From positions 1 to 64,000 of the forward strand of contig CACKJM010000004.1 of NCBI GenBank assembly GCA_902600475.1: a DNA stretch of 64,000 nt, given 5' to 3'. Position numbers and translations under genes: made by a program. Below, one piece after another: positions 12,453 to 64,000 of the stretch (the stretch's first letter is position 1; each line of letters begins with the position of its first letter). This DNA comes from an uncultured Prochlorococcus sp. (GTDB lineage Bacteria; Cyanobacteriota; Cyanobacteriia; PCC-6307; Cyanobiaceae). The notes beneath the pieces are model-generated. The model was not told the DNA's origin, did no database searches, and worked only from the letters and a program-made list of their open reading frames with translations.

Positions 12453-12642
12453 TAAGACTTAATTTATTAGATTCATGATGACAAACGAAAATTAGTAAGT
12501 CCACCCTATGTAACGTCTTGAATATTAATTAAAAGTGAAAATGTATTTTTTTTATTTCTTGGGAAATAAAAATTTAATAAATAATTGATCAAAATATTTA
12601 TGTAATTAAAATATAGTTGATAACGAATTTTTAAAATTACTC

Positions 12643-13488
12643 ATAGAAAATACTTTTTTAAAAATAACTAGTAAAAACAATAATCTAGTTAAAAGATTTA
12701 GATCATTTAAAAGCGGATCCTCTCGCAAAGATAAAGATTTTTTTTGTATAGAAGGTACTCATCTTATTGAGGAATTGCTTAAGTCTGGAAATTCTCCCTC
12801 CAAAATTTTAGTTACTGAAAAATGGCTAAAAAAGAACCAAAGTCTTAGCAAACACTTTGATGAATCATTATTAACTTTGGTCTCTGAGGAGGTTTTAGCT
12901 TCTGCTATTTCAACAATTAATCCAGATGGAATAGCAGCCTTAGTAAAGATTTCAGCAATATCTAATTATCAATTTAATAGAAAAGATGATTTTGTTCTTG
13001 TTCTCGACAGAATTCAAGATCCTGGGAATATGGGTAATCTTTTTAGAACTGCTTTAGCTGCTGGTGTTAATGCAATTTTTTTAGCTGGAGGTGCGCACCC
13101 ATTAGGCCAAAAGGTATTAAGGGCATCCTCTGGTGCAGTTTTTCATCTGCCATTTTTAAGATTTGATGGGACTGAAGAAGAAATATTAAATTCTTTACTT
13201 AAGTCTTTGTCTGAATTATCAAATGAAGGATTTAAGATTTTCTCTACTAGTAGCCATAATAAAATTTCAAAAAAACCTTCAAAACCTTACTGGGAAGTTG
13301 ATTGGTCTAGACGTACCGCATTAATCTTGGGTAATGAAGGTCGAGGTATTCATAAAAAAATTCAAGAAGCTTTTAATGAAACAATTACAATTCCGCATAG
13401 CGAGCTTGTAGAATCATTGAATGTGGCTTGTGTTGCAGTTCCGTTATTACTAGAACGAAAAAGAGTCGCATACACCTCTAATAAATAA
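12643..13488 (+). CDS. SpoU/TrmH-family RNA 2'-O-methyltransferase, start codon unclear
   Basis: SPOUT-fold methyltransferase acting on tRNA or rRNA ribose. The C-terminal knot has all three motifs: LDRIQDPGNMGNLFRTA, the NEGRG loop, and IPHSELVESLNVA. The first possible common start, TTG at 12775, would cut into the N-terminal substrate-binding domain, because the frame upstream reads VKRFRSFKSGSSRKDKDFF and then IEGTHLIEE, a classic SpoU N-terminus. The frame is open back to the stop at 12607, yet it holds no ATG, GTG or TTG before 12775. ATA at 12643 (followed by ENTFLKIT) is the best-placed candidate. The gene is otherwise intact, so an ATG-to-ATA change, an unusual start or a sequence error are all possible. 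Confidence 0.8.
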   Translation: MENTFLKITSKNNNLVKRFRSFKSGSSRKDKDFFCIEGTHLIEELLKSGNSPSKILVTEKWLKKNQSLSKHFDESLLTLVSEEVLASAISTINPDGIAALVKISAISNYQFNRKDDFVLVLDRIQDPGNMGNLFRTALAAGVNAIFLAGGAHPLGQKVLRASSGAVFHLPFLRFDGTEEEILNSLLKSLSELSNEGFKIFSTSSHNKISKKPSKPYWEVDWSRRTALILGNEGRGIHKKIQEAFNETITIPHSELVESLNVACVAVPLLLERKRVAYTSNK

Positions 13489-60567: not shown

Positions 60568-61750
60568 CTACTTTAGTTCAGGAAATTGATATTCTTTCCC
60601 TGGAACAACATTATCTTGCCCCCCTGACTTAAGTTCTTCTGCAATTATCATAGATTGTCTAATGCAATCATCTATATCTATTCCATAAAGATAAGAGCCA
60701 GCTCTTCCTATTGAATAAACTCCTTCAGGCATTAAATCATAGTATTGTTTTGCTAATAACTGTTGCGCTTTAAATGGGACGGGATATTCATATCCACCAT
60801 TAAGAGAGGGTATTTCCATTCCTATAAGCGAGGTATTTGATTTGTAATGTGTGAATTTTTTATATTCAACTAATCTAGTGAATGGTTCTTGGTTTGCGTA
60901 ATATAGAAAATATACATTTTCAGGAAAGACATATTCACTTGGGAATACAATTAATTTTAATTCTCTTCCAATTTATTTTAAAGGTCCTAATACTTCATTG
61001 AGAAAAACGTCGGGACCTATTGTTGATACGATAATATCGAATGATTTCTTTTCGCCTTCAATTAAAACTTCTTTTTTCTGAATATTAATAACTTCACAAG
61101 TAGTATTTAATAACACTTGAGTATTTTCTTTAGCTATGGGGAAATATTTGTCATACCCATCTAATGAATATGGATACCCAGAAATTGCAGTATCCCATGC
61201 TCTTTTTGGACCATCTTTTAGAGTGATACCTTTAGGAGACCAATTAAAAGTATCTATTTTTCTATTATCATCTACAAACCACATTTTTTTATTATATTTA
61301 TCAATCATTTTTGAATACAATGTTTCACCAACACTAGCTATCCAATACTCCTCAAGATTTTTTGCTGATTGGATTTTGCTGGGATCCTTACTTGATTGCA
61401 ATTCATGGTCAATCTTTTTGTAATCTGGCATTTTCCTTACATCTTGCATGTTAATTGGATAAGCATAGAACGAGTCATCCTTTTCCACGTAAGTTAAAAA
61501 TTCATATTCAGGGCATAATCTTATGGGAATAAATTATCTATATATTTAAATACTTCTTCGTAGGGAGTTAAAAAGTGTCTTGGTCCAAAAGTATAAGGAT
61601 GTCCTCCATACCATCTTGTTTTATTCCCAGCGCCTAAAAAACTTGATTTTTCAATTAGCGTCACATCCCAACCACCTTGTAAAGCTAACTGGTGAGCTGT
61701 TGCGCATCCAGCGAACCCCCTCCAATTATTAAAGCTGTTTTATTTTGCAT
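60568..61750 (-). pseudogene. Broken UDP-galactopyranose-mutase-like gene
   Basis: The conceptual protein of about 394 residues resembles FAD-dependent UGM: start NKTALIIGGGFAGCATAHQL, then GGHPYTFGPRHFLTPYEE, YPINMQDVRKMP and EEYWIASVGETLY. It is interrupted three times: one base seems missing in a C5 run (plus 61716-61720), one in a G3 run (plus 61525-61527), and an in-frame TAA at 60973-60975 sits where homologous context suggests Tyr (LK*IGREL). Intact stretches in three frames remain highly coding-like, so the decay is recent or partly sequencing error. The in-frame stop is not a homopolymer artefact. If intact it would have supplied a furanose-form sugar nucleotide. Confidence 0.85.
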
Positions 61751-61924: not shown

Positions 61925-62758
61925 ATGAGTGTTGAGATAATTAAAAATGAGCAACTATCAAAAATTTCAAAATATCTAAGATATAAGACTATTAAAACTT
62001 CCCATGAAGCCTCTATACCGCATCTTGGCTCATGTTTATCATGCGTAGAAATTTTAGTTTATTTGTATTGGTCTGAATTAAATTTGGATCCTTTGAAATC
62101 GTCTTTTGAAGATAGAGATAGATTTATATTAAGCAAAGGCCATGGAGCTCCAATATTATTTCAGGTGCTGGCTGAGAGAAATTTTTTTGATAGTGATTTA
62201 TTAAAAACAGCAGGCGAGAATGGAAGTTATTTTCATGAACATCCACCTAAGCCAGGATATATTCCTGGTATAGAAGCTGCTACAGGCTCATTAGGTCATG
62301 GGTTCCCAATTGCTTTAGGAATGGCTCTTGGTGCGAAAATAAATAACAAATCTTATAGAACTTATGCATTATTAAGTGATGGAGAGTGTAATGAAGGAAC
62401 TATTTGGGAATCAGCAATGCTTGCGGCATCAAATTCTTTATTTAATTTAACTGTTTTAATTGATTTTAATAAATGGCAGGCGACAGGTAGAAGTAAAGAA
62501 ATAATGGCATTAGAACCTTTACTAGATAAATGGAAATCTTTTGGATGGCATAGCCAAGAAATTGATGGACATAATTTTAATGAAATAAGAAATTCCCTTA
62601 TAAATGCCAAAAAGAATGAACAACAACCAAGTGTAATTATTGCAAATACAGTAAAGGGTAAAGGTATTTCTTTTATGGAGGATAATAATAATTGGCACTA
62701 TAGAATACCTAATAAAAATGAGTTTTCAGAGGCTTTAAAAGAGTTAGAAATTATATAA
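61925..62758 (+). CDS. Transketolase, N-terminal (TPP-binding) subunit
   Basis: A 277-residue stand-alone N-terminal half of a transketolase. LSKGHGAPILFQ, TGSLGHGFPIALGMALGAK (about 120-138) and the TPP motif GDGECNEGTIWESAMLAASN (about 152-171) are complete. Its C-terminal partner is encoded at 63525, separated by a dioxygenase-like gene. It lies in a polysaccharide region, so moving a two-carbon unit onto or from a special sugar is more likely than a Calvin-cycle role; this is inference. ATG start. The 174-base upstream gap should hold the operon promoter. Confidence 0.9.
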   Translation: MSVEIIKNEQLSKISKYLRYKTIKTSHEASIPHLGSCLSCVEILVYLYWSELNLDPLKSSFEDRDRFILSKGHGAPILFQVLAERNFFDSDLLKTAGENGSYFHEHPPKPGYIPGIEAATGSLGHGFPIALGMALGAKINNKSYRTYALLSDGECNEGTIWESAMLAASNSLFNLTVLIDFNKWQATGRSKEIMALEPLLDKWKSFGWHSQEIDGHNFNEIRNSLINAKKNEQQPSVIIANTVKGKGISFMEDNNNWHYRIPNKNEFSEALKELEII

Positions 62759-62766
62759 TTATCCTT

Positions 62767-63528
62767 ATGAAAGACACTGCAGAAATTAATAAATATCCAA
62801 ATTTGGAGGGTTTTACTTTAGAAAATAAAATATCAGATGAGGAGTTAAATCAATTTAAAAAATTTATAAATGCCCAATGGTATGAAAGGATCGAACAAAT
62901 AAACCCTGAGGTAGCATCTGAAATAAAAAAAAAAGATATTAAAATTGACAACTACCATAAGATATCAAGTAGTCTAAAACATGAAAAAATTTGGAGTAAA
63001 TCAAATAGAATACTTCCTTTGAATTTTGTAAACTGGTTTAAAAATTCTAAATTCGCAAGATCACTGGAATCAAGATATGGTGAATATACAATCTCTGATG
63101 AAGATAATTTAGGTTGGCCAAATGTTTATTGGAGATTAGTAAGACCAGGTTTTTCAGAAGATGTTGGCCCATTGCATAGAGACTCATGGTTTTGGCAGTT
63201 AAATGATAAATTTCCGAAGCCAGTTTATAGTTTTTCTAGATTAAAAGTTTGGATTCCCATTTTTACAGAGAAAGGATCTAATGGCCTTTTAGTAGAGCCT
63301 TTTTCTCATAACAGAAAAGATATCGAATGGCATGGTGAGTCAAGGCATGGTATTAAAAAACCTACTTTAATAACAACTATTGATAAATTAAATCCTATTT
63401 TATTAAATACTGAAGTTGGTGATTCTGTAGTTTTTAATGATAACCTAATCCATGGAGGAGCTATTAATAAAGGATTGAAATGCAGAGTAAGTGTTGAATT
63501 TACAATGTTAATAAAAGAATTTAAATGA
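62767..63528 (+). CDS. Phytanoyl-CoA-dioxygenase-like Fe(II)/2OG enzyme
   Basis: A 253-residue protein with the jelly-roll iron-binding set: His137-x-Asp139 (GPLHRDSW), His229 (NLIHGGAI) and Arg240 at the expected 2-oxoglutarate-binding spacing. The fold family is PhyH-like and often hydroxylates small molecules or sugars. It starts eight bases after the transketolase N-subunit gene and overlaps the C-subunit gene by four bases. This implies a shared operon and perhaps a shared product. Substrate unknown. Confidence 0.78.
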   Translation: MKDTAEINKYPNLEGFTLENKISDEELNQFKKFINAQWYERIEQINPEVASEIKKKDIKIDNYHKISSSLKHEKIWSKSNRILPLNFVNWFKNSKFARSLESRYGEYTISDEDNLGWPNVYWRLVRPGFSEDVGPLHRDSWFWQLNDKFPKPVYSFSRLKVWIPIFTEKGSNGLLVEPFSHNRKDIEWHGESRHGIKKPTLITTIDKLNPILLNTEVGDSVVFNDNLIHGGAINKGLKCRVSVEFTMLIKEFK

Positions 63529-64000
63529 GAACTTTATTCCAAAAAAAAATTACTGCGCTAGCAAAAAAAAGAGATGATATTGTTCTTCTTTCTGGAGATA
63601 TAGGTAATAAAATGTTTGATGATTTTAAACAAATTGCACCAGAGAGATTTATTAATTGCGGGATAGCAGAAGCTAGTATGATGAGTGTAGCAGGAGGATT
63701 AGCTCTATCAGGTTTGAGACCAGTTGTATACACAATAACCCCCTTTGTAACTGCAAGATGCTTTGAACAAGCAAAAATTAGCGTTGGATATCATGAGGCA
63801 AATGTTGTAATAATAGGAACTGGCTCTGGTTTATCATATGCTGAATTAGGTGCTACTCATCATTCTTTAGATGATATATCAATAATGGGTTCTATCCCAA
63901 ATATGAGAGTTTTAGCCCCTTGTGATCCAAATCAGCTTGGTTTTTATTTAGATGAAGCATTAAATCTAAATGGTCCTACTTATATAAGAATAGGTAAAAA
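63525..64000 (+). CDS. Transketolase, C-terminal (pyrimidine-binding) subunit, partial
   Basis: ATG at 63525, overlapping the previous stop by four bases (ATGA), and running off the window at 64000. About 158 residues are visible: VLLSGDIGNKMF, RFINCGIAEASMMSVAGGLALSG (containing the catalytic glutamate of the GIAEA motif), TPFVTARCFEQ and ELGATHHSLDD. It pairs with the N-subunit at 61925. The C-terminal domain lies beyond the window edge. Confidence 0.9.
   Translation, partial: MRTLFQKKITALAKKRDDIVLLSGDIGNKMFDDFKQIAPERFINCGIAEASMMSVAGGLALSGLRPVVYTITPFVTARCFEQAKISVGYHEANVVIIGTGSGLSYAELGATHHSLDDISIMGSIPNMRVLAPCDPNQLGFYLDEALNLNGPTYIRIGK

Follow-up and report, generated by a model that had tools for sequence, protein, structure and literature searches.

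A split transketolase with an altered substrate pocket in a putative surface-sugar cassette of Prochlorococcus and unrelated bacteria

Enzyme pairs of the E1-alpha/beta type install two-carbon branches on keto sugars of antibiotics (PMC12247030, PMC4753412), and split transketolases have been proposed to perform the same branching in miharamycin and amipurimycin (PMC12247030). It is described as an open question whether transketolases encoded by split genes attach such branches to keto sugars (PMC12247030). The stretch of DNA analysed here (the window) comprises bases 1-64000 of a 104-kb Prochlorococcus contig and ends in the two halves of a split transketolase, TKN and TKC, with an oxygenase gene between them; the part of the contig that holds them and the associated gene cassette is labelled locus L002. 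What merits study is the cassette together with its altered split transketolase; the oxygenase found between the halves is an occasional addition. No description of this cassette was found in open-licence papers, and searches of the same literature found nothing on the function of the NCBI families TIGR04323 and TIGR04324, both encoded nearby, or on Prochlorococcus surface transketolases. The three genes at the window's end are:

61925-62758, + strand: TKN, thiamine-diphosphate (PP) half of the split transketolase, 277 amino acids (Pfam Transketolase_N, 7.7e-34)
62767-63528, + strand: PhyH-type Fe(II)/2-oxoglutarate (2OG) oxygenase between the halves, 253 amino acids, an optional member (Pfam PhyH, 3.6e-7)
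63525-64000, cut by the window end, + strand: TKC, pyrimidine-binding (Pyr) and C-terminal (C) half of the split transketolase (Pfam Transket_pyr, 3e-31)

An earlier note on this DNA had described two transketolase halves flanking a PhyH oxygenase, and this is confirmed by the open reading frames and by Pfam, with a gap of 8 bases between TKN and the oxygenase (62759-62766) and an overlap of 4 bases between the oxygenase and TKC (63525-63528). Family annotation of the neighbours likewise agrees with its description of surroundings rich in surface-glycan genes, the genes around the triplet being glycan genes. In the contig, TKC is complete and 307 amino acids long (L002:2026-2949, ending near window-equivalent position 64448). 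The PP domain and the Pyr and C domains are thus carried by two neighbouring genes, which defines a split transketolase. Among solved chains, TKN is closest to 6yak (E 2.3e-72), the N component of the split transketolase from Carboxydothermus, and TKC is closest to 6yaj. As TKN scores 117.6 bits against Transketolase_N versus 27.6 bits against E1_dh, the latter is not its best family. TKN and TKC stand side by side in every relative read, save where the oxygenase intervenes.

The residues of 19 glycan-type pairs were compared in E. coli numbering, TKN being compared in 18 of them. The window pair keeps the thiamine-diphosphate and catalytic residues His26, His66, His100, His261, Asp155, Glu160, Glu411 and His473. 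Glu411 and His473 are kept in all 19 pairs, and the TKN histidines and Asp155/Glu160 are kept across the set with one exception at His100. The canonical substrate-binding set is lost in the window pair, in which His461 is replaced by Gly, Asp469 by Leu, Arg520 by Lys and Arg91 by Gly. Position 461 is Gly in 19/19 pairs; position 469 is Leu in 18 and Asn in one, the Asp being lost throughout; position 520 is Lys in 18 and Ala in one, without a single Arg; and at position 91, whose Arg forms a salt bridge with Asp469, a different residue occurs in 18/18. His461, Asp469 and Arg520 are kept in the canonical transketolase of the same genome, in the human and Carboxydothermus enzymes and in the second pair of a Solidesulfovibrio plasmid, as is Arg91 where compared. 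In a tree, the canonical and glycan-type sets split at a 98/95 branch, some rows being long-branched. Judged from these alignments, the thiamine chemistry of the glycan-type pair is intact and its substrate pocket rebuilt.

In E. coli transketolase, Ser385 contacts the substrate phosphate, and directed evolution at positions 385, 469 and 520 shifted the acceptor from phosphorylated to non-phosphorylated, bulkier or aromatic aldehydes (PMC5073344). A non-canonical acceptor is probable for the split transketolase of the window. That the pair would be an ordinary Calvin-cycle or pentose-phosphate transketolase fits its intact catalytic residues but is hardly credible: besides the changed substrate residues and the location in a glycan island, a TKC relative (E <= 1e-40) exists in only 8 of 151 Prochlorococcus genomes, and a separate full-length transketolase is encoded on contig C15 of the same genome, which holds three further Transket_pyr genes, one of them in a full-length transketolase-sized frame. 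A Calvin-cycle role was rejected on account of this canonical enzyme and of the altered substrate residues, and the pair bears no signature of that pathway, so that this objection, raised in the earlier note itself, falls away.

The conserved unit is TKN-TKC-HAD-APH plus a methyltransferase (MT), a zinc alcohol dehydrogenase (ADH), often present, and two nucleotide-sugar enzymes of the short-chain dehydrogenase/reductase (SDR) family, HAD and APH being a HAD-type phosphatase and an APH-type kinase. Homologous pairs elsewhere therefore have consistent neighbours, a point on which the earlier note had made the link that it drew depend. The cassette ranges over Cyanobacteria, Parvibaculum and Planctomycetes and is partially present on a Solidesulfovibrio plasmid. 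An alignment of the HAD protein, A4, provided a marker independent of the transketolase. It matches 9 of 386 cyanobacterial genomes, eight of which carry TKN-TKC with HAD and APH, mostly with MT and the SDR enzymes and sometimes with ADH; the cassettes found in this way come from Prochlorococcus and its wider family as well as from distant cyanobacteria. In the one exception (G209), the HAD-like gene is alone, with no surrounding cassette (L067:9485-10096). Parvibaculum possesses EPI-core (an SDR), a GmhA-like gene and NDPepi-TKN-TKC-HAD-APH-MT-ADH in a single run, NDPepi being a 4,6-dehydratase-like SDR. Two Planctomycetes exhibit an ADH-HAD-APH-NDPepi run, then C-methyltransferases, a cupin and an SDR, and the oxygenase, with MT-TKC-TKN some kilobases further on. 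Among 72,556 plasmids, HAD and MT have one match each, both on a single Solidesulfovibrio plasmid, where a split TKC and an APH kinase lie next to them. Taken together, a dedicated surface-sugar cassette is very probable.

Two plasmids deserve separate mention. Solidesulfovibrio carbinolicus pDCAR1 carries two split transketolases in one glycan cluster (L052:1615-3383 and 12549-13487), of which one retains the canonical substrate residues while the other, next to HAD and APH, has the altered set; the plasmid thus offers a natural comparison pair. A Paenibacillus cellulosilyticus plasmid (L071:816-6927) encodes, in a row, rfbF, rfbG (CDP-glucose 4,6-dehydratase), a methyltransferase, a fused SDR-transketolase N protein of 635 amino acids and a transketolase C related to the cassette TKC. 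The fusion suggests linked substrates for its SDR and transketolase parts.

As for the oxygenase, it is a true PhyH-fold enzyme, and none of its metal or 2OG residues is missing. His137, Asp139, His229 and Arg240, singled out in the earlier note, are invariant across 19 homologues and form the HxD...H iron triad and the 2OG arginine of the PhyH superfamily. Its AlphaFold2 model (mean predicted local distance difference test score, pLDDT, of 92) has the PhyH-type fold, with PtlH as best match (Z 15.8, rmsd 3.7, 213 residues aligned). Several PhyH enzymes tie as fold matches, namely PtlH, the proline hydroxylase H11, SnoK and EvdO2 (Z 14.6-15.8), so that no substrate is readable from the fold; a functional assignment on this basis was rejected, the tied matches pointing to no single substrate. 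Against TIGR04324, the oxygenase scores 28.5 bits, below the curated cut-off of 150. No relative of it was found in phage records or in IMG/VR, nor one of HAD in IMG/VR, and a phage or viral origin was rejected on these empty searches.

Its place between the transketolase halves is rare. The oxygenase was searched for in 197 relatives, in 386 genomes of the phylum and in GTDB-wide contigs, yielding matches in 2 of the relatives, in 3 of the phylum genomes (the window's own genome being included in each count) and at 18 GTDB-wide loci. The second Prochlorococcus, AG-349-G15 (L010), exhibits the order TKN-PhyH-TKC-HAD, the HAD gene reaching the contig end, with 77/66/80/67% identity to the window. 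As this order is shared by a second genome, the observation is not due to chance. Of the eight Prochlorococcus genomes with a TKC relative, four close ones besides the window's own (G065, G079, G095 and G109; 55-62%) have TKN directly abutting TKC, followed by HAD and APH, with other genes intervening ahead of APH in G079; the oxygenase is absent from these four in the search of relatives. It thus lies between the halves in two of six close Prochlorococcus pairs, and in none of the other 17 altered-transketolase loci read. A conserved ordered triplet was rejected as a general feature, and the three-gene unit foreseen in the earlier note gives way to the pair with its neighbours: the arrangement recurs once, in L010, and nowhere else among the loci read. 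Since only L010 shares the position and four close relatives lack the oxygenase, it probably entered between the halves once, in the lineage of the window genome and L010.

The oxygenase family was followed at 21 loci (the window, the 18 GTDB loci, G128 and G428). A split transketolase is present in the cluster at six of them (the window, L010, L015, L016, G428 and Parvibaculum), although at some distance in two: the oxygenase is ~12 kb from HAD in G428, and the distance in Parvibaculum is ~20 kb. At five others (L009, L018, L019, L020 and L022), an E1-alpha/beta pair takes the place of the transketolase, assigned by Pfam (E1_dh) for L022 and by mutual similarity for the remaining four. The other ten, several of which are short contigs, have neither pair in the examined stretch. 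The E1 loci have the NDPepi, EPI-core, MT and ADH families in common with the transketolase cassette, while HAD and APH are missing from them, and HAD is also missing from four E1-type genomes searched whole. To note, a parallel cassette of SAR11 and Catenovulum has a methyltransferase adjoining E1-alpha/E1-beta, with the same SDR, ADH and oxygenase families and no HAD or APH. The parallel E1 cassettes are located at:

L018:4719-7402
L020:13112-15799
L022:6459-9175

Because the oxygenase family recurs in clusters holding the cassette or its E1-alpha/beta relative, it may plausibly be connected with sugars of this kind; its tie to the product of the cassette is a possibility, not a finding, and whether it acts on the same product as the transketolase is close to an even call. 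The oxygenase could instead be a passenger, inserted by chance between the halves and acting on another sugar of the same polysaccharide or on the assembled glycan, an explanation compatible with either role considered below for the transketolase. Gene shuffling in glycan islands, the four close relatives devoid of the oxygenase, and L011 and other loci where the family occurs with no transketolase or E1 pair in the examined stretch all speak for it. Conversely, two genomes sharing 66-80% protein identity have retained the gene order, members of the family again lie next to or close to the cassette ADH and MT in L012, L018 and L020, and one or the other pair is in the cluster at 11 of the 21 loci, several of the others being short contigs. 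A passenger is a real possibility, if on the doubtful side. 2OG oxygenases can oxidise C-OH to C=O, and the tight gene packing would suit three proteins working in sequence, the oxygenase creating a carbonyl that is then attacked by the transketolase. This is very unlikely, as cassettes without the oxygenase exist and the window's cluster has an ADH and two SDR enzymes that might make the keto group. The earlier proposal of one sugar-modification module made by all three genes is partly supported: the split transketolase belongs to a conserved sugar-building set, and the oxygenase is not a fixed member; the "shortened sugar" that it had offered as a possible product finds no support.

The best explanation overall, at a probability of roughly 0.45, is that a two-carbon unit is transferred in a non-canonical reaction to an activated keto sugar and that the oxygenase serves in tailoring; both the reaction and its product are what we infer. 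On the model of the split transketolase solved from Carboxydothermus, TKN and TKC would together form a single thiamine-diphosphate enzyme, and this enzyme would move a two-carbon ketol unit. The SDR enzymes and the ADH of the cassette would make the activated keto sugar; ADH, NDPepi and EPI-core, its putative suppliers by their families, are present in the window's cluster. The transketolase would then add the two-carbon unit to the carbonyl of the keto sugar, giving a branched, carbon-extended sugar to be methylated and built into the surface polysaccharide. More weakly, the optional PhyH oxygenase might hydroxylate or oxidise the cassette sugar or a neighbouring residue. Three points support, by analogy, two-carbon transfer to a keto sugar: E1 pairs replace the transketolase in the sister loci; a similar proposal was made for the miharamycin and amipurimycin split transketolases; and the Paenibacillus SDR-TKN fusion and TKC adjoin rfbF and rfbG. 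Branching of a keto sugar by the split transketolase, in itself an argument by analogy, is put forward tentatively. A rather doubtful extension of it is a widespread, undescribed pathway, shared by picocyanobacteria with unrelated phyla, by which a split transketolase, its acceptor pocket rebuilt, would attack an activated keto sugar to yield a two-carbon-branched or carbon-extended surface sugar, decorated by an optional 2OG oxygenase.

The main rival to this two-carbon transfer is chain extension. Here the split transketolase would produce a long ketose, free or phosphorylated, of seven or eight carbons; much as in the heptose pathway, a GmhA-like isomerase, a kinase (APH or HldE-like), the HAD phosphatase and a nucleotidyltransferase would then convert it to a nucleotide higher sugar. 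In its favour, HAD and APH go with the transketolase version of the cassette and are missing from the E1 version, and GmhA-, HldE-, GmhB- and HddC-like genes are found in the clusters of the window's contig, G428, L065, L046 and Parvibaculum. In L062, L063 and L065, NDPepi is immediately preceded by an HldE-like gene. However, His461, Arg520 and Asp469, which bind the phosphate and the acceptor hydroxyl in canonical transketolase, are replaced, no heptose-like genes occur in the examined stretch of the Planctomycete, L040 and L066 clusters, and most of the heptose-like genes fall below the NCBI equivalog cut-offs and may belong to another sugar. Chain extension is considered rather unlikely.

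Several points weigh against the keto-sugar explanation with its tailoring oxygenase. Sugar-phosphate chemistry would explain the kinase and the phosphatase no less well, and likewise the GmhA/HldE/HddC-like genes that several of these clusters contain. Of 11 transketolase clusters reached independently of the oxygenase, just one (G428) contains it. A Rhizobium split transketolase from an apparently catabolic locus has Ser461 and Leu469 and yet keeps Ser385 and Arg520; loss of Asp469 alone is therefore no mark of biosynthesis, and its use as such was rejected. Opposite Ser385, one alignment places Lys and another Asn, for which reason this position is not used as proof. Finally, Lys at position 520 together with the kept Arg358 could still hold a phosphate.

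Beyond the window, TKC is followed on the same strand by the HAD-like gene (4-base overlap) and the APH-type kinase (1-base overlap), then by an RmlD-like SDR, a WbuC cupin, a radical S-adenosylmethionine (SAM) protein, a GLF-like flavoprotein, TIGR04324 and TIGR04323 members and an MTA/SAH nucleosidase. On the opposite strand come NDPepi, ADH, MT and another SDR, and EPI-core, HldE-, GmhA-, GmhB-, LhgO- and HddC-like genes are located further along the contig. Three of these genes are defined as follows:

L002:2946-3548: HAD-like gene, no Pfam or NCBIfam model, motifs complete, a good genomic marker of the cassette
L002:8234-9016: TIGR04324 member, 218.6 bits, above the cut-off of 150, a downstream paralogue of the oxygenase
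L002:9016-9405: TIGR04323 member, above the curated cut-off

The HAD call rests on the DxDxT, Ser, Lys and DD motifs; the model of a relative is middling (pLDDT 75), its nearest folds being haloacid dehalogenases and deoxyribonucleotidases. Ahead of the triplet, a GLF-like (UDP-galactopyranose mutase-like) gene on the - strand (window 60574-61718) carries one frameshift and one stop that disrupt it. In L041, two genes past the cassette APH kinase, a relative is intact (77-80% identity in the two pieces), and a second GLF-like gene, intact, is located at L002:7104-8237. Just beyond the cassette, HisH-, AglZ/HisF2- and WbuX-like genes in a row (L002:15705-18299) represent the usual set for acetamidino or amidated sugars. 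An L-2-hydroxyglutarate oxidase-like (LhgO-like) gene, barely over the NCBI cut-off, stands among GmhB- and HddC-like genes at L003:8985-10205 and likewise in G428, L065 and L046.

Surface polysaccharides play a part in grazing and phage contact among marine picocyanobacteria, and genes for an unusual surface sugar would therefore matter there too. The cassette supplies a compact gene set, a residue signature and relatives in several phyla for testing keto-sugar branching; if true, such branching would give ketone-branching transketolases a first defined role in nature.

Among described systems, the NCBI "sporadic carbohydrate cluster" families TIGR04323 and TIGR04324 have members in the window's operon, the oxygenase between the halves being only a distant TIGR04324 relative. 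In the wps-2 exopolysaccharide cluster of Actinoplanes missouriensis, a SAM methyltransferase adjoins TKN and TKC as in the cassette, whereas the available part of the source describes no HAD, APH or oxygenase there, unlike the window's locus (PMC13390465). The Carboxydothermus hydrogenoformans split transketolase (6yak/6yaj, PMC7661550) has the same division into PP and Pyr+C chains and the same catalytic residues as the window pair, but it keeps His461, Asp469, Arg520, Ser385 and Arg91, where the window pair has Gly, Leu, Lys, a residue other than Ser, and Gly, respectively; moreover, it is the only transketolase of its organism, whereas the window genome has a canonical one besides. The AviB1/AviB2-type aKADH2 enzymes (PMC12247030, PMC4753412) have a counterpart in the E1-type pair of sister loci with the same oxygenase, SDR, MT and ADH families; they differ in that the window pair is of the Transketolase_N and not the E1_dh type, and in that the E1 loci are devoid of HAD and APH. 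The miharamycin and amipurimycin split transketolases (PMC12247030), likened to the window pair by their description, share with it the split gene, a biosynthetic sugar context and an oxidoreductase that might make a keto group, but belong to Streptomyces antibiotic clusters, in which hydroxyacetyl branching has been proposed.
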